Below the pieces are notes generated by a model, which did no database searches, had not been told where the DNA came from, and was given only the letters and a program-made list of their open reading frames with translations. A stretch of 64,000 nt of DNA from Bradyrhizobium sp. cir1 (lineage in GTDB: Bacteria > Pseudomonadota > Alphaproteobacteria > Rhizobiales > Xanthobacteraceae): positions 186,001 to 250,000 of the forward strand of contig NZ_JACIHE010000007.1 of assembly GCF_014198245.1 (NCBI RefSeq), given 5' to 3'. Positions 1-10,803 of this stretch are shown piece by piece (the first letter of the stretch is position 1; every line of letters starts with the position of its first letter). The position numbers and the translations under genes were made by a program.

Positions 1-997
1 CCACTTCATCGATCGATGATTGAATAAATGTGGTGGAGTCGTAGGCCACTTTCATCCTCACCGACGGCGGCAGGTTACGCTCAATTTCCGGAAACAGCGC
101 CCGAACGCCTTGCACTATGTTTAGCGGATTGCCCTGTGGGCTCGCCTGCACGCCGATAAAGACCGCGTGCTCGCCGTTCATCGTGACGCTAGTGTCTGTC
201 GTCTGCGCGGCAAGCTCGACCGTTGCAATGTCCTCCATGCGCACCAGTCCACCGTCATTGGCTTTGACGATCATGCGCTTGAAATCATCGACACTCCTCA
301 GATCTGTATTTGCCGTAACATCAGAGATAGTGAAATAGCCTTTGGTCTGACCGACCGCGGCCTGGAAGTTGTTAGCGGCAATTGCAGCCGAAACCTCAGC
401 CGGCGACACATCGTGCCCAGCCATTTTCGCAGGGTCGAGCCATAGCCGCATCGCAAAACTCTGGCCACCCAGCATCTCTGCAGTTGCGACCCCGTCGACC
501 GTTGAGATAACCGGTTGCACCACGCGCGAGAGGTAGTCGGAGATCGCGCTGGCCGCAAGTTCCTCGCTGGAGAAGGCAATAAACATGACAGCCGTGGCCT
601 GACCGGTCGACTTCGTGACGACAGGATCGTTTGATTCCTTAGGGATCAGGTATTTGACTGAGTTGACCTTGGAGAGCACCTCCGTGAGCGCTTCGTTGGA
701 GCTGAAATTAAGCTTGACATGAACTTGGATGGTCGAGGTACCAAGCACAGACGAGGAAGTGATGTAGTCGACGCCCTCGGCGGACGCGACTGCTTGCTCG
801 AGGGGAGTGGTGATGAACCCCTGGATCATGTCGGCGGAGGCACCAGGATAGGAAGTCGTGATATTGATGACCGTACTGGATAGCTTGGGATATTGCCGGA
901 TCGGCAGTAGGGTGGCGGCGCGCAGGCCGATCAGCAGGATCAGGAAACTGACGACGATAGACAATACCGGGCGTTTGATGAAAAGCTCGGTGGTCAT
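1..997 (-). CDS. RND multidrug efflux permease, 5' part (cut by window edge)
   Basis: Inner-membrane subunit of a tripartite RND (HAE1/AcrB-type) drug exporter. The minus-strand frame is open from an ATG at 997 to position 1, giving about 332 N-terminal residues. It begins MTTELFIKRPVLSIV, then a first membrane helix near residues 10-28, and continues into a porter domain with typical landmarks: SYPGASADMIQ, TPLEQAVASAEGVDYI, and later VVQPVISTVDGVA and IGVQASPQGNPL. Family members are about 1030-1050 residues, so roughly two thirds lie outside the window. An AAGGA sits about 10 nt before the ATG. The adaptor (membrane fusion) gene usually found directly upstream is not visible in the next several hundred bases. 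The gene borders the degenerate stretch and may belong to the same island. Confidence 0.9.
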   Translation of the reverse strand, partial: MTTELFIKRPVLSIVVSFLILLIGLRAATLLPIRQYPKLSSTVINITTSYPGASADMIQGFITTPLEQAVASAEGVDYITSSSVLGTSTIQVHVKLNFSSNEALTEVLSKVNSVKYLIPKESNDPVVTKSTGQATAVMFIAFSSEELAASAISDYLSRVVQPVISTVDGVATAEMLGGQSFAMRLWLDPAKMAGHDVSPAEVSAAIAANNFQAAVGQTKGYFTISDVTANTDLRSVDDFKRMIVKANDGGLVRMEDIATVELAAQTTDTSVTMNGEHAVFIGVQASPQGNPLNIVQGVRALFPEIERNLPPSVRMKVAYDSTTFIQSSIDEV

Positions 998-3556
998 GTC
1001 GACTCGTCCTTCGAAAGTGGGATGCAAATTCGCCGGCAACGTACACCAGCGAGGATCATCAATGCGGCGACTGTACTAAAGCCCCCAGCACAAGCGACGC
1101 GTTATTGGCTACTCTAAGGGCTCACACGCTCGCGAGCGCGGACGCTCTATCCTCCGCTTCCAATTTCGTCGCTCAAATAAATGCTATTCCGCTAATCTGG
1201 TGGCTGATCGCGATCTCGATAGTGGCACCTTCTAGAAAGCTCTTGCCCTTTTTGCGTGCAACAAGATGTTCGTCTCAACACCTGATTGGAACGCGCCGAC
1301 TTCTGGCAAGGCATCAGTTCAGACTTCGCACTGAACCGCAGATCGAATGATCCAGGTTCGACATCGAAAGTACAAACGATCTAACCGGCGCTCAACTCTA
1401 CAAAGGTAAGTGGGTGATATAGCATCGGCTACAAAATACTATACCAAGGTTTGTCGAATTGGCTGCTGATCGCCGCCGTAAGACTTGCGGGGTTTCCGAA
1501 CACAAGGTTCACGGCCCCACATATTTCGTGCGCACGCGCTGTCGCTTCGCTCACTCACGAACAAAGTAGTATCGGCGCTCGCCCTCTGCTACCAGCTCGG
1601 TACGCCTCTCGTAACAGTGGCTTGAGCGTTTCTTTCAGCTCGATATACTGCGCACGGTTTGGCTACTCATTGTGCTACCGAGTGGTCTCACAGACATCCT
1701 ATTCGAACCACTTGCCCCCGCTGCGACCCCTCTAGAAGCGCGCGTATGCGCGCAGCGATCTCCCGTGCTTCCTTCGGCCGCAGGTTGGGCTTCATGCAAT
1801 CGAGTATGGCTAGCATCGCCTGAACTTCGTCGATGTTAAATGCGGCGGCGTTGCGATCTGATCGTCCCAGAGACTGATCGGCGGCACGGGCTTGATTGGC
1901 CGCAAGCACCGCAAGGGCTTGCGACCGCAAGGACGTGATATGCCGCTCGAATACATGCATTTGTTGGCCTGTAGCTGCCCTGTGGGCATGGTGCCGCAAG
2001 CGCTGGCGGCCAACCCCGTCGCGAAGACTGGAGCTGGCCACCTTTGCTCCCGTGAGGCTCAAATTCTCAAGGCTATCAACTTGTATCTTCTAGAAGTACC
2101 GAAGGGCACCTACCAAAATCGGTCGGCCCCACCCCTCATCGGCAGCTCTCTAGGTTGGGGCCTTGCTTGGGAGAAACACCAGCATGTCCAGACAGGTGCG
2201 CTTTGCATGAACAAGAATGACGGGCCAAACACGCATGTGAGACGCAAGAATGTTGACGAAGTAAATCCAGACGGAACGCGATAGAAGCAGTCCCTTTGGA
2301 AAGATTATCCGAGACGCCGAAAGCCACGATAGGGAGTACCACGTTGAAGAATCGGCAACGCAGTCGGCGCCGTCGTCGCCACAAATGGCGGACACAATTG
2401 CACCAAGACAACAGCGGACGGGCTTCGCAGGCAATCTCCTCCCCTCCAGAGGGTTGGTGATGATTGATCGGAAGCAGTGCGGCGCGACTCGGCGTCGTTT
2501 GGTTGCACTACTGGAGCAGACGCTGTCACTGCCTGCCTCTACTGCTAGTTGAACTTGACACTCCGCGCTCGCCCCCCCACGGGGCAGCGCTGTCCCTGCA
2601 ACCCCGCTAACCGGCTCCAAGCTCAGCTAGCGGTGGCAAGATGCTGATCGGGAGCTCCGCAAAACGAGTAATACTGCCAGAACGAGACCTAACCCGAGTT
2701 GGAAGCGGTGCGAACGGGTCGACGCCTGACGGCCTGGGGGCATCATGAGGCACGATCCCTGCCGCATCCGCGGTGCAATGAGCTTAACGGAAGCGTAACT
2801 CGGCACATGGTGGTCCTTCAGCTCATGCGCTGTCCCTGCCACGCCCCCGTTAAACCCAATGATTGTTTATCGGGGCTGGCTTACAGAAAGCTGACAGACC
2901 TGCGCAGCAATTTACATAACGAAAAGTGGCCCCATGTGGCTGCTTGCCGCCAGAGCAATATCGACGTTTCCGCGTCAGACAGTAGCCACCCGGCATGCTT
3001 GCGATCACCGGCAGCCGCTCCGGGGCGACGCGCCGGATGGCGCGCAGCCAATCCACTGAACGTTTATGTCTGATTGACCTTACGCCCCCGGCCCGTGGGC
3101 CGTCGCCTCAGGGTACGGTGGGACTTTAGCGATAGAGCGTCCTCGGGTGACCTACCAGCATTGGTGGTCATGCACAGCAATCGAGAAACTGTTGGTCAAA
3201 CTTGAAGAGCGAGCGGGTTAACGCCGCTCAGTCCTCCAGAGCGATCAGACGACGCCAGGGCGCCGCTATCTCGCCGTATCTCTTCTTCAGCTGCGGTAAA
3301 TAAAAAAGACCGAGCACATCCAAAAGCGCGGCTAACCGCAGCACTCGTCGATCAAGCGGGGTGCGTTCTTGGCCGCCTAGCCTTCTACGCGAGCGATCTT
3401 GCGTTCGCTGAATCGTTCCCCACCCACCTGCGATGACGAGTTCGCGCGTCGGTCGATCTGTGAAGCGAAAGAATTCTTCTCAACCTTCTTCGGGCACCAA
3501 TGACGCTGATCCCGGACTGATTGGCCCTGCTCGGCCAGAAATTAGCGTTGACGACG
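998..3556. other. Gene-poor, probably degenerate DNA
   Basis: No open frame here has the codon bias, ribosome-binding site or recognisable motifs of a real gene, and base composition is visibly less GC-rich than after position 9500. One stop-to-stop stretch on the minus strand (about 3228-3479) could be the C-terminal end of a lost gene: it ends in a plausible amphipathic sequence (LLDVLGLFYLPQLKKRYGEI) but has no start codon. A minus-strand frame at 1688-2062 (ending LRPKEAREIAARIRALLEG) is another possible remnant. I cannot assign either. Confidence 0.5.
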
Positions 3557-3832
3557 TTAGGCCATGGCTTTTATTCTCTTCGACCAGTTCAACGCGGTAC
3601 GCTCGCCCATTTGCGCCGCCGTATCATACCAGAAGTGTACTCGCGCCCCAACCGAAAGCGAGACGTCGCAATTGATCACGGTTCGGTCTGTGAAATAATA
3701 ATCGCGCGTCTCGCCATCGGCATGCAGGAGGCCATAGTAGCCGCGATCGTTCGGCTTGATCTTGACGACTCGGCCAAGCGTTTCAGGCAATGGCAGAAGC
3801 CGAACGTTCCGCGCGCGCGGATTTCGACCCAT
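3557..3832 (-). CDS. Small hypothetical protein, possible OB-fold
   Basis: This 91-residue frame begins MGRNPRARN; the frame stays open upstream to an ATG at 3919. Its middle (GRVVKIKPNDRGYYGLL, later YYFTDRTV and LSVGARVHFWYD) has the alternating pattern of a cold-shock or S1-like beta barrel: a short strand, a Gly/aromatic-rich turn, then hydrophobic strands. That fold assignment is by eye only. No clear Shine-Dalgarno precedes either start. It follows another small minus-strand frame after 22 nt, so the two could be a remnant operon. It may equally be chance coding in a decayed region. Confidence 0.33.
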   Translation of the reverse strand: MGRNPRARNVRLLPLPETLGRVVKIKPNDRGYYGLLHADGETRDYYFTDRTVINCDVSLSVGARVHFWYDTAAQMGERTALNWSKRIKAMA

Positions 3833-3854
3833 ACGTCGTATGCCATAGTCGAAG

Positions 3855-4037
3855 CTAACCCTCGTATGCGGCGCGTCTATCTCGCTCGCGCCGCAGCCGA
3901 ACCAGATCGCGCTCGTCAAAGTAGACGGTTAGCTCACGGTCGCACCCCTTACCAAGCGCCGCGTCGACGATATCGTCGTAGTGCCGGCTCCGATTGTTGC
4001 GGTCTTCGGGGAAGACAATGATTCGACCCTCAGCCAT
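3855..4037 (-). CDS. Small hypothetical protein
   Basis: A 60-residue charged frame starting MAEGRIIVFPEDRN and rich in Arg and Asp, with a C-terminal basic/acidic helix (DLVRLRRERDRRAAYEG). It lies directly upstream of the possible OB-fold protein on the same strand. No ribosome-binding site is seen and I recognise no family. Listed because it is the more protein-like of the overlapping frames here; it may be a remnant. Confidence 0.25.
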   Translation of the reverse strand: MAEGRIIVFPEDRNNRSRHYDDIVDAALGKGCDRELTVYFDERDLVRLRRERDRRAAYEG

Positions 4038-7000
4038 GAGAGAAACTCGCGATCTCGTTTCAGGGAACCGGAGATTGCGTCAAACTCGGTACTGGCTTCA
4101 CTTCGAAGCGGCCGCTCAGCCACGAACGAATCAAACTTTTCAGGTGCGTCGGGGTGTCGCCGCCCCAGGAACCTCGGTCGAAAAATCGGTGGAAGCGCGA
4201 CACTGCCGCGACGCTGTCTCCATTGCGTTGCGACATTGGGTTTCGTGGTCACCTCAGCAGGGTTCTAGTTCTCGTCGGTTCATAAACCAATGTTTCAGCG
4301 TCGAGCACCGGTATCGGGCGCTGCTTAGCGCCGGCATGTTTACGTACAAGCATTAAAGCCCCTCGCTACACCGCGGCCTTTGCCGGCGATATACCTCTCA
4401 GCGCTGTTCGCGATTCCGGCAGCCTTCTCGTTCCCGGGCGCCTTCACGCCCCTTGCTTTTCGACAGACCAATGTGTGGCCGACCACGGATTGCGCAGCGA
4501 GCATTGGGTCGGAGCTTTTGTTACTCGGGCTAAGGTTTGCAGCGAGCTTCCCGCCGTTGTGGAGCGCAGTTGCGCGATGAAGTTCGCGGCGAACAGCTCG
4601 ATGTCAGGCAGAGCCTTTGGTTTGCAGAGAGGCGCAAGCGTCTGCATGCTCCTCTTATCCTTGAGCATCGGTCAACTCCTTCTCTCGCGGGCGACCAAAC
4701 AGTGTGCGTTCCCAAAAGGAAACGCGAGTAACGCGATGACGGCTATGCGTGCCACAATGCAGCTAGGCTTTTTGCGTACAGTCAGCGCATCGCTCTGAAT
4801 TCCGCAGGATCTTTCGATCCCGAGAATTCGCGCGGCCTCAACTTATGTGGCTGCGAAGCGATCAGTCTTGATGTTATCTGTGTTCGCATAGCTTTGGAAT
4901 TCGCGTCTGCCGGTTCGTCAACGGCATGCCACCATTTTGCTTCGTCGGGACTCGGCGGAACAACTGGTAATATTGCAAAGTGCGAATGTGCGGGATCGGC
5001 TGCGAAAATTGGCGCGGAAGAGAACGCTGCGTCGGCGGCCTTAGGGTTTGCCACGATTTACTTTGCGACCACGGTCGGAAAGGAGCTTGTAGCTGCGCAA
5101 CGCTCCGTTTGACTATTTGATTTACGCGTTTACCTCTTCGCTCTCGCCAAAAATCTCGACTCATCGGTGAGATCTGTACTTGCTGCAAAGGTCCGCTCGC
5201 CTGCCGGACCGCAAAGGCGCGCATCAATCGGCGGGCGCTTGGCGGAACCAGCATACTTCGGCCTCCTCTTCAGCTTAGGCGGGGTCGAGGGGGCAGTGAC
5301 CTATCGGATCTAAGAGGGCGCAAGCCGACGTCGCTCGTCGAGATCAGAGCCGCTGTCCATTGGGTGAAAGAGGCGATCTCGTGGGCGCTCGGTATCGTTG
5401 GGGAGCGCCTCAACTCATGATGACATTGGCCAAAGAACGTGTCGGCCCACTTATGCAGCAGATCGCGATAGTTACGCACCGCAGCGTAACTGGCTGCCAG
5501 CCGTTCAGCGTTTCGAGGTTCTGGCTGACAGGAATCGACGAGCAGGAATCGGATACGGCTAACCGGTTATTGTTTTGAAGTATTCCGAGCCCGGAAGGTC
5601 TAGAACTAGAGGGAAGGCAGCGCGGGCCGGCTCTGCGCGCTGTTCAAAGCGGCTGTAACTACCGGCTCCGCGCTGCCAGCGAAGTTAAATGACGACGTGA
5701 CTCGGCGCTCGTCGAAGAGGCCCTTGGAAAGCGCTGTCCCTATCACGTGCGCCACTAACTCCGCTCGCCAGCGTCACGGCATTGCAACGCTGCCACCTCG
5801 CACCCTTGGGCGGCTGCCCCAGGGCGCTCTGCCTTTTACCGTCGAGAAGTCCCGCAAGCCACCTGTCAGACTTAGTCGGTTGCGCTGGTTTACGAAGGAG
5901 AAGCTGGAGTGAAAACGACTCGTTGTGCCGACCAACCTGCCCCCGCCCCCACAGGAGGCCGGATCTGATTCGCGACTTCCGCATCATTGGAGCGCACGTG
6001 AAAGCCACCGGCCCTCTTTCAGGAATATCAAAATGTCAGAACCTGAAGGCGTTTCGCAGAATTCGCTATAAGCCCTCCATTTGAGACAAAATTCGGCAGA
6101 AAATCGTACCGCGCCCTATACTTACGGTGGTTGCGCCAATCCCCTATGAGAGTCTGTGTAAATTTCTCTTCCAAACCGGGGGGCTTCGGAAAAGGAATGA
6201 CGGTCCGATCATTGTCGCGATCAAACTGCGCCTTTCCAACTCACCAAAACTTTCTTTCAACACATCTATGCCAAGTACCATGGCTTGTCCTATCAAGCTG
6301 GAAAGCTGCATGCCCACATATCGCAGCCGCCTCTAAGCGGCGGCGCCTGTAGGAATAATGGGCAATCTGGATTGTAGAGTAGAAAAGTCCCGCAAGGCAC
6401 CTGCCAGATTTTATAGCTTCACACGACGTTAGCCGTCATGAGTTGTCGCACCAACATGCGCGTTTACTCCGCTAATCCCGGGCAGGTTGAACTTCCCCGC
6501 TGCTCCAATGGGTCCCCGGATGGATAGCTGATTACGGTGCCTCCTCAGCCTAGATTGCCCGCGGTGCTTCTCACCTCAGATAAGCAAGTGTGATGGGTTC
6601 TGGGATCTGGCGCTGAGGTCGATCGTACAGCGGTCATTCGATGCGCACCACGGCTGCCGCGAGCAATACCGCTAATTGTAAACCGTCTAGAACGGCGCGA
6701 CAGTCGATCCGTCCTCCGCGGTGGCGGACGTATTGAAGACGCATCAGAGCTCATCGGCACGATGAGACCCCCAATCCTCGGTGCAAACGGGAGTAAGAAT
6801 GGTCGCATCAAAGTCCCTTTAACAACGAGTTTGGTACGGTCGCTGCCTTTGGCCGTCACAGAGAGGCATGTAAGGACATCAATTCATCGGACCTTCGGGC
6901 CTCATCCTGTGGCTCGCCATTCCCGCCTCTCGTCGGTGCATCTTTCGCTCATGGGAACAAGGGTCGTGGGCCAGCGAAAGGCATCGATTTCGTCAAAGAT

Positions 7001-7741
7001 CGGTAGCTATGGTGCTCTTCGCTTGTTCGAACGCCTATTTCATCGAGGAAGTTATCTGGTGGCGAAGGGCCCACGAGGTAACTTCGTCAAACTTGAAGGT
7101 TGTCTCTCGACGTCGGTGACGATTGTGTCGAGCGCGTGGGTCTTACCGTGTGCCGCCGGTCCCTAGACCAAGATGCCGTTCGTAAGCTCTAACTGCAGCG
7201 AACAATATAGTTCCCGACGCGCTTGGCTCATCAGGTACGGCGAGATTGTCGGGTAAGGCAAGAAGCTTCGGGTGCCACGCACTATCCACCACCTCCTCGC
7301 CTACGGTCTAGCTACGGGCTCCAATCAGAGCGAACTGGTGGCGAAATCGATAGCTGGAACAGAGTCCCGTGACGGAGCCCGGAGTTTCCACCCTGGTATT
7401 CGCTAGATTAAGTCGATATGCCCTTCCCAGCAGTACCAATTCGGCGCAAGCAAAGCCGTTCGCTGCTCTCTTTTTCTTCGCTTAAGCATCCGATTGCACG
7501 ACGAGCTCATAGCGGCCGTTGCACTTAGTTATCATCCGAGCAGGATGCTCGAGATGATCAGCCCCCACCACCTCTTTTCGACTGGCGCCAGCGCAGGTGC
7601 GTGCACCTCGTTGAGCCGCGCGATGGCCTAGAGGCTCGATCGTGCGGGAAGCTGATCGCAAATTTTTCTTGCAGACGAATCCAGACAAGGCGATCTTACG
7701 TCTCGCGCGAGTACTTGCTCGTGTGGCCGCGAGGGAAGATC
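4038..7741. other. Gene-poor, degenerate island interior
   Basis: About 3.7 kb with no convincing intact gene. On the minus strand at about 7095-7200 a frame reads ELTNGILV, an in-frame TAG, then GPAAHGKTHALDTIV; this resembles the Walker A region of a GspE/PilB-type secretion ATPase broken by a stop codon. A roughly 30-nt sequence around 5850-5880 (containing agtcccgcaag) recurs imperfectly at 6385-6415 in the same direction, which may mark old mobile-element debris. Other frames show no recognisable domains. Confidence 0.5.
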
Positions 7742-9457
7742 ATGAAAGAGAGCTCGCCAATCGAAGAGACGACAAGGAAAAGAGCGACGATCTATGCTCG
7801 ATTCTCAACCGATCTGCAGAACGAGCGATCGATTGAGGATCAGCTTTCACTTTGTCAAAGCTATGCCGAGCGCGAAGGTTTAACTGTTGTCAGTACCCAT
7901 GAAGATCGGGCTCGTTCAGGCGGGTCCGTCATGGGCCGCGATGGCCTTCTGCGGATGTTGGACCAGGCGCGAGAGAGATCCTTCGACGTGGTAATCGTCG
8001 AAGCGCTCGATCGCCTCTCTCGCGATATGGAAGATCTCGCTGGCATTCATAAGCGGCTGTCATTTCTCGGGATCGAGATCCGGGCGGTCCACGAGGGAGT
8101 CGTTAACACCGTGCTGGTCGGCCTTCGCGGTTTGGTCGGACAACTCTATCGTGAGGACAATGCGCACAAAGTGCGTCGCGGCCAAGCGGGGCGGGTCAAG
8201 CAAGGTTTGGCTGGCGGCGGCCTGACATACGGGTACGCCGCGGTCACTGGAAGAAGTGGCGAACGAGTGGTTGTCGAGGCCGAGGCACAAGTGATCAAGC
8301 GCATATTTCAGGAATATGTGGACGGTCGTACGCCTCGGGAAATCGCGCATGATCTCAATAGGGAGAGGGTATCACCTCCGCGGGGGCGAGCCTGGAATGC
8401 CTCAACAATCAATGGCAATCATGAGAGGGGCGCCGGCATTCTGCTGAACGAACTTTATATGGGACGCCTTATCTGGAACAAAGTCAGGATGGTGAAAGAT
8501 CCCGACTCGGGAAAGCGCCTGTCACGACCGAATCCGAGGAGTGACTGGCAGATCGCTGAAGTGCCACATCTTGCAATTGTCAGTCCAGAGTTGTTCACAG
8601 CCGCCCAGCAACGCAAAGGGGAGCGCAGCCACGGCCACCCCAGCCATCAACGTCGGCCCCGTAGGATGCTATCTGGCTTACTCCGTTGCGGTTCATGCGG
8701 CTCGGGTATGGCAACGAATGGACGGGACAAATCGGGGCGCGTTCGGATTCGCTGCTCGGCGGCCACCGAAAGTGGCACGTGTCCTGACGCCAAGACGTTC
8801 TATTTAGACACGGTCGAGAGTGCAGTCCTCAGCGGGCTAAAGGCCGAATTGCGCGCGCCGAAGGTTCTTTCGGAGTACGTGCACACATATCTCGAGGAGC
8901 GGAAGCGCCTCGCAGCTACATCAAACGCAAAACGGCAGCGCCTTGAGCAGCAGCTTGGGCAATTAAACCGGGAGATCGAACGACTGGTGGATGCGATCGC
9001 AAAAGGACATGGCGATCCGTCTGTTCTCGGACCGCGATCAACCGCACTGGATGCCGAACGAAAGCGGATATCCGAGGAGTTGCAGAGTGAACCGCTCGCC
9101 CCGAAGGAAGTCGCGCTACATCCGGCCACCCTCAAACGATACGAGGAGCAACTCGGTCGGCTTGAAGAATCACTAGCAAAAGGTGTCAGTGCGGGCGACG
9201 GAGAGGCCGCAGAAGCCATCAGAGACCTGGTCGAGACGGTCACTGTGTTCCGCGATCCAACGCGCGGTGGTGTAGCTGTGAAGATAGCAGGCCGGCTAAA
9301 TGCCCTGCTCGGGGAAAGGGCCTATCCCAACCAAGTCGAAGGAGTGTGGGGAAAGGTGGTAGCGGGAGGGCGCTACCGCCAATCCCCCCAAGACGACGCG
9401 TCGGGGGTAAAGGTGGTAGCGGGGGAGGGACTCGAACCCCCGACCCCAGGATTATGA
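7742..9457 (+). CDS. Large serine recombinase (island integrase/excisionase)
   Basis: Site-specific DNA recombinase, 571 residues from the ATG at 7742; the frame is open further upstream but the extra residues are not family-like. The N-terminal resolvase domain (about 14-160) has the catalytic motif YARFSTDLQ with Ser22 as nucleophile and the arginine-rich EALDRLSRD segment. A recombinase domain follows (about 175-290), then a zinc ribbon (CGSCGSG ... RCSAATESGTC) and a charged coiled coil (about 380-440). This is the large-serine-recombinase layout used by phages and ICEs. The last 15 codons overlap the tRNA-Met gene on the opposite strand, and the stop codon is the complement of bases in its anticodon loop, so the present C-terminus was probably created by integration. 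The surrounding island looks decayed but this gene has no visible lesion. Confidence 0.9.
   Translation: MKESSPIEETTRKRATIYARFSTDLQNERSIEDQLSLCQSYAEREGLTVVSTHEDRARSGGSVMGRDGLLRMLDQARERSFDVVIVEALDRLSRDMEDLAGIHKRLSFLGIEIRAVHEGVVNTVLVGLRGLVGQLYREDNAHKVRRGQAGRVKQGLAGGGLTYGYAAVTGRSGERVVVEAEAQVIKRIFQEYVDGRTPREIAHDLNRERVSPPRGRAWNASTINGNHERGAGILLNELYMGRLIWNKVRMVKDPDSGKRLSRPNPRSDWQIAEVPHLAIVSPELFTAAQQRKGERSHGHPSHQRRPRRMLSGLLRCGSCGSGMATNGRDKSGRVRIRCSAATESGTCPDAKTFYLDTVESAVLSGLKAELRAPKVLSEYVHTYLEERKRLAATSNAKRQRLEQQLGQLNREIERLVDAIAKGHGDPSVLGPRSTALDAERKRISEELQSEPLAPKEVALHPATLKRYEEQLGRLEESLAKGVSAGDGEAAEAIRDLVETVTVFRDPTRGGVAVKIAGRLNALLGERAYPNQVEGVWGKVVAGGRYRQSPQDDASGVKVVAGEGLEPPTPGL
9352..9366 (+). repeat. 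Inner copy of tRNA-Met 3'-end repeat
   Basis: The 15-nt sequence aaaggtggtagcggg occurs here and again at 9409-9423, exactly 57 bp apart, and both copies are read as KVVAG in the recombinase frame. The second copy includes the last 10 bases of the tRNA gene with its CCA. This copy may be a relict attachment site left by an earlier insertion, or a local duplication. Confidence 0.6.
9409..9423 (+). repeat. tRNA-overlapping copy of the repeat, candidate att site
   Basis: This copy of aaaggtggtagcggg covers the CCA end, discriminator base and part of the acceptor stem of the tRNA-Met gene. Its place between recombinase and intact tRNA is where an island attachment junction is expected. The distal partner site would lie left of the window. 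Confidence 0.5.
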
Positions 9458-9490
9458 TTCCCGTGCTCTAACCAGCTGAGCTACCCCGCC
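9414..9490 (-). tRNA. tRNA-Met (anticodon CAT)
   Basis: Folds as a complete 77-nt cloverleaf including an encoded CCA. The acceptor stem is GGCGGGG/CCCCGCT (first pair G-U), the D arm is GCTC/GAGC, the anticodon stem is CGGGA/TCCTG around loop ATCATAA (anticodon CAT), the T stem is GGGGG/CCCTC with loop TTCGAGT, and the discriminator is A. The G1 acceptor pairing and D-loop fit elongator rather than initiator Met, though a tRNA-Ile2 with modified C34 cannot be excluded by eye. Its 3' end faces the serine recombinase and is probably the island insertion point. Confidence 0.93.
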
Positions 9491-9689
9491 ACAGGGTCGC
9501 GAACGGCGAAACGGCCGATCTCGCGAACGCGCGGCATATAAGGAAGGGGGCGGCGGGAAGTCAAGCAAAGTGGCGGCGATTGATGGGGTGAATTCGCTGA
9601 CGAAATCGCCCTGTTTGGGGGCCGATCTCGCCCTATTTCTCGCACCAGACTCGCGGAGCGCCCCCTCACCCGAAATCCGCATCCGCCAA

Positions 9690-9736
9690 GGCTTCCGCCT
9701 TCGCTAAAGCTTCGGCGGACAAGTCGGCGGGACAAG
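9690..9736. repeat. Short intergenic repeat module
   Basis: A near-palindromic segment (ttccgccttcgct ... agcttcggcggacaagtcg). A similar module (cttccgccttcgct ... cggcggacaagtcg) is embedded in the repeat at 45600-45640, so it is a dispersed element rather than part of a gene. Confidence 0.5.
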
Positions 9737-9763
9737 CGCGGGGAGAGGCAAAGGAGAAACCGC

Positions 9764-10120
9764 CTATTTCGGCCTCACATTCGGGTCGCCGCCGGGGCTG
9801 CCGGGGGGCGGGATGACCGGGGTGTTGGCGCCGGAGTCGGGGGCCGGGGCGTGCATTTCGGGGTCGACGCCCGAGGGCGGGCAGATCACGCCGTCGGATT
9901 TTGCGAGCTTGTCGCCGAGCGGTTCCCGGGACTGGCCGGTGGTGGTGCCATCGGCCTGGCGGTTCGGGCGGTCCTGCGGCGTGCAATTGGCCGCATGCTG
10001 CGGGGATGGCGGCGCGGTCTGTTGCGGCGGCGTCGCCGGGGCGGGCGGGGCCTGCGCGATCGCACTGCCGGAGGCGGCGATGAGGAGGCTTGCCAGGATG
10101 ATGTTTGATGTCGTGCGCAT
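9764..10120 (-). CDS. Secreted Pro-rich hypothetical protein
   Basis: A 118-residue protein starting MRTTSNIILASLLIAASG, a clear Sec signal peptide with likely cleavage after AIAQA. The mature part is low-complexity and rich in Pro, Ala, Gln and Gly (PPAPATPPQQTAPPSP, later PPPGSPGGDPN) with two cysteines. The start at 10120 was preferred to an ATG 52 codons upstream because it puts the signal peptide at the N-terminus and avoids overlap with the methyltransferase gene. It is probably a periplasmic or surface protein. I recognise no family. Confidence 0.7.
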   Translation of the reverse strand: MRTTSNIILASLLIAASGSAIAQAPPAPATPPQQTAPPSPQHAANCTPQDRPNRQADGTTTGQSREPLGDKLAKSDGVICPPSGVDPEMHAPAPDSGANTPVIPPPGSPGGDPNVRPK

Positions 10121-10164
10121 GGGAGGAAAACGCGCCGGCCTTGGCGCGCGTTCCCATCGCGCGA

Positions 10165-10803
10165 TCACGATTTGCGGTAGCGGATCAGCGAGAAATGGCC
10201 CATCGGCGGCATTGGGCGGCGCTCGGTGAGCGTGACGCCGCCGTGCCTGGCGGCCCAGTTGACGAGGCGGGCCCACGGGAATTCCGGGCGCCAGCCGAGA
10301 CGGCGGGCGACGGGGGCGAAGGCGAGCTCGGAGAGCTTGCGAAGACCCTTTTCCGCGCCGATGTGGTTGACGAGAATCAGCTCGCCGCCCGGCTTGAGCA
10401 CGCGGACGAACTCGTCGAGCGTGCCTTCCGGATCAGGCACGGCGGTGATGACATATTGCGCCACCACCGCGTCGAAGGCGTTGTCGGGGAAGGCGAGATT
10501 CTTCGCATCCATCACCGAGAGCACTTCGACATTGGAAAGCCGCAGCGCCCGCACGCGCGCCTGCGCCTTGCGCAGCATCGGCTCGGAGATGTCGACGCCG
10601 CAGATCTTTGTGGTGCGCGCGTAGTCGGAGAGCGAAAGACCCGTGCCGACGCCGACGTCGAGGATGCGGCCGCCGATGCGGTCGGCTTCCGCGATGGTCG
10701 ACTGCCGTCCGGCGTCGAAGACCTTGCCGAACACGAGATCGTAGACCGGCGCCCAGCGGCCATAGGCCTTCTCGACCCCCGCCCGCGAGATGTCTGCTGC
10801 CAT
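10165..10803 (-). CDS. Class I SAM-dependent methyltransferase, PmtA-like
   Basis: A 212-residue Rossmann methyltransferase. It starts MAADISRAGVEKAYGRW, followed by YDLVFGKVFDAGR, motif I ILDVGVGTGLSL, ICGVDISEPML after it, and the post-I motif DAVVAQYVITAVPDPE. The YxRWAPVYDxxFG opening and overall size match Rhodobacter-type phosphatidylethanolamine N-methyltransferases, which methylate PE on the way to phosphatidylcholine; related ubiquinone/menaquinone-type methyltransferases share much of this, so substrate is inferred. The Met at 10803 was chosen over one 6 codons upstream by fit to the family start. It is transcribed away from mnmA, with a palindromic repeat cluster between them. Confidence 0.8.
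   Translation of the reverse strand: MAADISRAGVEKAYGRWAPVYDLVFGKVFDAGRQSTIAEADRIGGRILDVGVGTGLSLSDYARTTKICGVDISEPMLRKAQARVRALRLSNVEVLSVMDAKNLAFPDNAFDAVVAQYVITAVPDPEGTLDEFVRVLKPGGELILVNHIGAEKGLRKLSELAFAPVARRLGWRPEFPWARLVNWAARHGGVTLTERRPMPPMGHFSLIRYRKS

Follow-up and report, generated by a model that had tools for sequence, protein, structure and literature searches.

Bradyrhizobium sp. cir1 carries a large serine recombinase (LSR) gene that reads into a tRNA-Met gene, which raises the question of whether an island was inserted here, whether the LSR itself made the junction, and whether the present C-terminus of the protein is a product of that event. The window, which is the whole stretch of DNA analysed, is 64,000 nt long (G000:C7:186001-250000, contig NZ_JACIHE010000007.1). 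Its features, numbered within the window, are:

1-9413, no strand: right-hand end of element A of the island, extending left along C7 (G+C, collinearity, nifH)
7742-9457, + strand: LSR gene in its integrated form, 571 aa, C-terminus ...VVAGEGLEPPTPGL then stop
9343-9367, + strand: recombinase-side half of a 50 bp attP (P arm and core start), from symmetry with the C8 arm
9357-9413, + strand: 57 bp in-frame unit with a second att core and arms resembling another element type
9414-9427, + strand: 14 bp att core TGGTAGCGGGGGAG, common to attB (G122), attR (C8), and attL
9414-9490, - strand: tRNA-Met(CAT), the restored target gene (attB/attL), found by ARAGORN and Rfam RF00005
9491-10300, no strand: chromosomal flank kept beside tRNA-Met across the genus (query 9409-10300)

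Overlap of the recombinase gene with tRNA-Met

The LSR frame runs on the + strand from an ATG at 7742 to a TGA at 9455-9457, and an in-frame GTG at 7601 would give a longer frame. With the tRNA gene at 9414-9490 on the - strand, the overlap is 44 bp and the stop codon falls on the anticodon triplet. The first-pass annotation had placed the LSR end 44 bp inside tRNA-Met, with the stop opposite the anticodon loop, and this is exact by ARAGORN, Rfam, and the frame coordinates. The tRNA gene encodes its CCA end (ARAGORN), matches RF00005 at 64.6 bits, and reads, from inspection of its sequence, as an elongator tRNA-Met. The catalytic motifs, described in the same annotation as intact, are indeed so: the domains expected of a serine integrase are all found (Pfam Resolvase, Recombinase, and Zn_ribbon_recom), and Tyr18, Arg20, Ser22, Asp90, Arg91, and Arg94, which we take to be the catalytic residues, are invariant in an alignment of 44 sequences. 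The best match of the LSR profile to a solved structure is YokA, the SPbeta integrase (E 6.4e-29).

A scan of GTDB species genomes gave 204 LSR relatives, the best 80 of which (44–93% identity) were analysed. Sixty-six of these 80 end within a complete tRNA-Met, with an overlap of 44 bp in 65 and 58 bp in one, although the query included the tRNA-encoded tail and could slightly favour integrated copies. Such homologues extend down to 44% identity. One other copy has a tail of the tRNA type and no complete tRNA, one runs off its contig, and 12 close without a tRNA, with other tails or broken frames; none of the best 80 ends in a complete tRNA other than tRNA-Met. Occurrence of the same recombinase at non-tRNA sites had been named as a point that would speak against the proposal, and these counts are the answer to it. 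The hosts of the 80 include Bradyrhizobium, Mesorhizobium, Methylocystis, Roseibium, Rhodobacteraceae, and sphingomonad MAGs, among others. Among the best 80 of 92 relatives on viral contigs, 22 stop inside a complete tRNA-Met, at 44 bp in 21 cases and at 43 bp in one. Another 33 show a tail of the tRNA type at an end that is cut, four run off, and 21 close otherwise, of which one (L374) also has a tail of this type.

Antisense frames of tRNA genes are frequently open, so that an LSR lying beside a tRNA by chance could lose its stop codon and be translated into the tRNA gene. That such an accident explains the overlap is scarcely credible, as the same 44 bp recurs in 65/66 tRNA-ending homologues, at identities as low as 44%, and matching att junctions are present at the other end of the island. 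With 66 of the best 80 homologues closing inside tRNA-Met, all but one of these after 44 bp, the overlap exceeds chance and is what this clade normally shows.

There are attP-like recombinase ends away from tRNA-Met in G129 (L053, G129:C1:8824894), G162 (L085, G162:C1:2568007), and G194 (L078, G194:C1:1244161), the recombinases in the first two being frame-broken or partial. These ends may be junctions between stacked elements.

Island ends and an island-free relative

The tRNA-Met gene and its right flank (query 9409-10300) are matched, in part or whole, in 195/195 genomes of the genus. In 2.5 kb steps the G+C is 0.55–0.63 to the left of tRNA-Met and 0.61–0.69 to its right. Twenty-nine relatives were compared with DNA up to 1.5 kb left of tRNA-Met (two with much less), and an LSR homologue is present there in seven, six at 81–93% identity and one at 45%, and absent in 22. 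In strain G076 there are two tRNA-Met(CAT) genes approximately 410 bp apart at the same locus (L023).

A palindromic att pattern, allowing up to two mismatches, was used to find island ends in 195 genomes. It has two sites in the cir1 genome, the window and C8:164931-164951. The 15,008 bp from C8:164951 onward match, at 95.5% identity, the stretch immediately left of tRNA-Met in G122, a complete genome without this island. The insertion of an island at tRNA-Met, as had been proposed, is thereby supported, and the comparison with an empty-site relative that had been called for is provided by the same genome. The core TGGTAGCGGGGGAG is present in attB of G122, in attR on C8, and in attL here, as well as in attL of G056, and 37 of the 40 positions preceding it are identical between G122 and C8. 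An older att-like site lies 28.8 kb further left of tRNA-Met in G122, so its site is island-free but not pristine.

A repeat of the tRNA 3' end had been expected to the left of the window. The far junction with TGGTAGCGGGGGAG does exist, on contig C8, but there is no second copy on C7, where only a 15 bp repeat 57 bp away and weak 11–15 bp matches were found. An initial att pattern built on 23 bp of identity with the tRNA did not pick up this junction. Numbers of genomes that match the att pattern are not counted as evidence, because a reversed-pattern control matched in 30/195 by hand count, against 95/195 for the pattern itself. A candidate far end at C2:244647 was rejected as a degenerate relict; here (L004) a far-end arm is fused to a sequence resembling a tRNA T-arm.

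A restored tRNA, a 3' fragment displaced to the other end, and an island-free relative mark this as a tRNA-targeting genomic island, and the junction at tRNA-Met was probably made by the LSR that the island carries. It had been stated that serine recombinases at tRNA genes are less common, and this agrees with a 2011 survey in which, in the part available, serine integration into tRNA genes is called rare, with mycobacterial tRNA-Leu elements and phiRSM1 as instances (PMC3218068). The available text of a 2014 tRNA-island database paper has only tyrosine integrases known to target tRNA genes (PMC4383910), and among Mesorhizobium ICEs and IMEs tyrosine integrases are reported in 73/79 and serine in six (PMC8627217). 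As is proposed for the cir1 LSR, the integrases of the phiRSM filamentous phages and of mycobacterial AICEs at tRNA-Leu are described as serine enzymes acting at tRNA genes (PMC3218068, PMC3816273), although these use other tRNAs, the phiRSM Int is described as resolvase-like, and the phiRSM attP is placed between ORF14 and ORF15.

With tRNA sites usually owned by tyrosine integrases, another integrase, for example of that class, might have inserted the island at tRNA-Met with the LSR as a passenger. A tyrosine-integrase-like gene is present on C8, and the recombinases of G189 and G027 precede 48 and 59 bp, respectively, of the 3' part of the tRNA, beyond which the DNA is foreign. The 14 bp core is, however, central in a palindrome that abuts the LSR, as would be expected for a serine integrase, the clade sits at tRNA-Met in diverse hosts, and the C8 gene adjoins tRNA-Pro instead. 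A passenger LSR is very unlikely in this light, and insertion by the LSR is preferred.

In G189 (L077) and G027 (L079) the whole tRNA-Met is found 174 or 225 kb beyond the 48/59 bp fragment that is linked to the recombinase. The fragments suggest that other elements have also used tRNA-Met, cutting deeper, as later insertions.

attP within the gene and the exchanged tail

The recombinase-side half of attP in the window has its mate at the far island end on C8. Joined, the two arms form a 50 bp imperfect palindrome centred in the core, with 21/25 positions symmetric, as good as which there were 0/2000 shuffles. A natural attP-like site in G162 has 20/25 and strain RP6 has 15 (P 0.0065). A short core within a symmetric attP of about 50 bp, as in serine integrases, is therefore seen here, the symmetry in the att region of Rhizobium phage RR1-A not being significant (12/25, P 0.15).

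In its integrated form the LSR has a tail read from the antisense strand of the tRNA, EGLEPPTPGL then stop. In copies outside tRNA-Met the frame runs past the core into a different tail, and joining the cir1 island ends at the core gives ...VVAGERYHLSPHQPNLRYLIQSYA then stop. The far ends of integrated islands encode a tail of this kind, RYRLSPHxxNLRYLIQSxA then stop (19 codons) in the first type and RYLRSPRxxSAEFLVSVA then stop in the other (type B). The recombinase of the free phage RR1-A ends in ...VVAGERFEQSPQIILGRFVA then stop, and that of Microcystis phage Mae-JY30 in ...VVAEVRSNPSPPFRFGVIAA then stop. The earlier reading of the present C-terminus as an integration product is supported, in that the joined ends give another tail and RR1-A carries a tail of that kind. 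With attP within the LSR gene and the other tail at the far end, integration is taken, from the sequence of both forms, to exchange the C-terminus of the LSR.

That integration can swap the 3' end of an integrase gene is known for Myxococcus phage Mx8, in which attP lies within int and the new 3' end is reported to alter specificity (PMC6070905), and the SSV integrases are described as having the same arrangement (PMC6070905, PMC4383910). Those are tyrosine integrases, whereas this is a serine recombinase at tRNA-Met on a symbiosis island. The inducible Paracoccus prophage phiPam-6 is reported to have a serine recombinase and a tRNA-Met site with the 17 bp repeat CCCTCCTCCGCTACCAT (PMC3925955), which overlaps the TGGTAGCGGGGGAG core of the cir1 island. 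phiPam-6 is a phage, its likeness to the cir1 LSR is by description, and no tail exchange is described in the available part of that paper. No report of an exchange of this type in a serine recombinase was found in the accessible text of the open-licence literature.

Conservation of the tail was assessed from 84 distinct far arms, of which 43 belong to family 1 (40 picked by motif and three added by hand) and 11 to type B; another 30, made up of other types, relicts, or chance matches, lay outside the test. The 19-codon frame is kept in 36/43 family-1 arms; the seven in which it is lost were excluded. In the 36, codons 9–19 have 0.236, 0.199, and 0.435 differences per site at codon positions 1, 2, and 3, with pN/pS of 0.37 and a permutation P of 0.0038 for the position-3 excess, and pN/pS is 0.36 for the 11 type-B arms, the sequence pairs in these statistics not being independent. 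After the tail stop the similarity is close to random, in a region that is near saturation and does not serve as a control for rate. These differences show an alternative 19-residue tail under constraint at the codon level. As the tail DNA of an integrated island sits at the far end, off the gene, the constraint should act in the excised form.

It might instead be that attP overlaps the gene merely by adjacency, that a protein-binding site accounts for the conservation of the far end, and that the tail is functionless. Codons 1–7 of the far arm hardly vary at any codon position, which is how a binding site would look, and the tail is predicted to be disordered. Variation mostly at third positions in codons 9–19, a drop in similarity right after the stop, and two element types with different but internally conserved tails argue that this is unlikely.

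Predicted models have pLDDT below 50 from residue 519 onward in the free form and 526 in the integrated form, so both tails are predicted to be disordered and any effect of the tail would concern binding, stability, or regulation and not folding. The exchange may affect the activity, stability, or direction of the LSR. A bolder reading, possible but tentative, is that the tail acts as a sensor of the integration state, a switch common to the phage and ICE recombinases of this clade across the Alphaproteobacteria. If so, the LSR's own 19-residue tail, carried in the circle and the free phage, would favour insertion into tRNA-Met, and the tRNA-encoded tail would make the enzyme less active, less stable, or, with a partner, biased to excision. 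This natural exchange gives a means of testing directly if the direction or level of serine integrase activity is under the control of the tail.

Between the LSR att half-site and tRNA-Met is a 57 bp unit (9357-9413), missed in the first-pass annotation, that starts with a second att core. Identical 57 bp spacing of an in-frame double core before tRNA-Met is seen in another recombinase subfamily, in L278, in L279, and in L113, which is the same as L274. The unit may be a relict of a second insertion or element.

The apparently split island and its content

Along C7, collinear blocks of 78–97% identity are shared with G056 and G162. The nifH gene is at C7:117249-118067, 77 kb from tRNA-Met, in element A, and is 74–169 kb left of the LSR in G056 (which has a second nifH elsewhere), G162, G189, G129, and G027; nodC is on contig C17, unlinked to the island in this draft. 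Matches among ten long C7 ORFs scanned include nitrogenase component 1, HypF, and FHIPEP, and ten from C8, in element B, include a conjugative coupling protein, VirB4/TrbE, TrbL, and TrbI. With nifH in A and type IV secretion genes in B, the cargo is that of a symbiosis ICE.

On C8, tRNA-Pro (104892-104968) is followed by a 60 kb segment and then the tRNA-Met far junction. A 61 bp repeat of the 3' part of tRNA-Pro, 98% identical, is at C11:182191-182251, and the DNA after it is homologous to the flank that lies downstream of tRNA-Pro in G122 and G056. The C8 protein beside tRNA-Pro has a weak tyrosine-integrase match, 24.5 bits against a Pfam cut-off of 27.1. The island appears to be split into two elements, with tRNA-Pro as the second site: two att pairs with swapped flanks, as in a bipartite ICE, are seen at the C8, C11, and C7 ends, element A being unlinked end to end because the genome is a draft. 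Such a layout would result from two recombinations that divide the element and invert the chromosomal segment lying between the two sites. In the complete genome G189, tRNA-Pro and its repeat are on opposite strands, 5.0 Mb apart, and in G056, G162, G129, G027, and G189 the LSR and att-like far sites are on opposite strands, megabases apart.

The split layout is not general, since in G117, G122, G080, G126, G058, G147, and G094 att-like sites are on the tRNA-Met strand, 15–250 kb away. Nor is tRNA-Pro the second site of all relatives. This was rejected because tRNA-Pro in G056 and G162 is without the repeat, so that their second site is something other than tRNA-Pro, and the repeats of G129 and G027 are on the strand of the gene, at distances of 10 kb and 1.3 kb from it.

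In the proposed sequence of events, the LSR would recombine attP, which spans the 3' end of its own gene, with the tRNA-Met 3' end at TGGTAGCGGGGGAG. This would restore tRNA-Met, give the LSR its tRNA-antisense tail, and place the 19-codon tail of the free form at the other end of the island, on C8; excision would rejoin the gene with that tail. A second recombination at tRNA-Pro, probably by the tyrosine-integrase-like C8 protein, would split the ICE into A (nif and T3SS) and B (conjugation genes). Taken as a whole, an island at tRNA-Met by way of an attP in the LSR gene, with tail exchange and a split at tRNA-Pro, is a very probable account of these sequences.

Bipartite symICEs are described in Bradyrhizobium at tRNA-Val and ybgC and at tRNA-Arg and ybgC (PMC9174649, PMC9239051), and are like the cir1 island, as read here, in being symbiosis ICEs divided between two att sites, with a segment of the chromosome inverted. 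In cir1, however, the sites are tRNA-Met and tRNA-Pro and one of the systems is a serine recombinase; the available text of PMC9239051 has no occurrence of "tRNA-Met", "serine", or "recombinase". The symbiosis island of Bradyrhizobium sp. Lb8 also has a met-tRNA at one end, as well as a partially duplicated met-tRNA, and is a single 1,015 kb region for which the available part of the paper states no integrase type and does not use "recombinase" (PMC7020250). A broad clade of serine recombinases is associated with a single tRNA gene; island finders limited to tyrosine integrases would miss it, and with it a split nitrogen-fixation island. The clade is also a source of attP/attB pairs that lie in a conserved gene.

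Element B has, close to its far end (L128:527-7365, G000:C8:155527-162365), two cytochrome P450 genes and a protein with a weak squalene-hopene-cyclase match, an arrangement that we take to be reminiscent of a gibberellin cluster.
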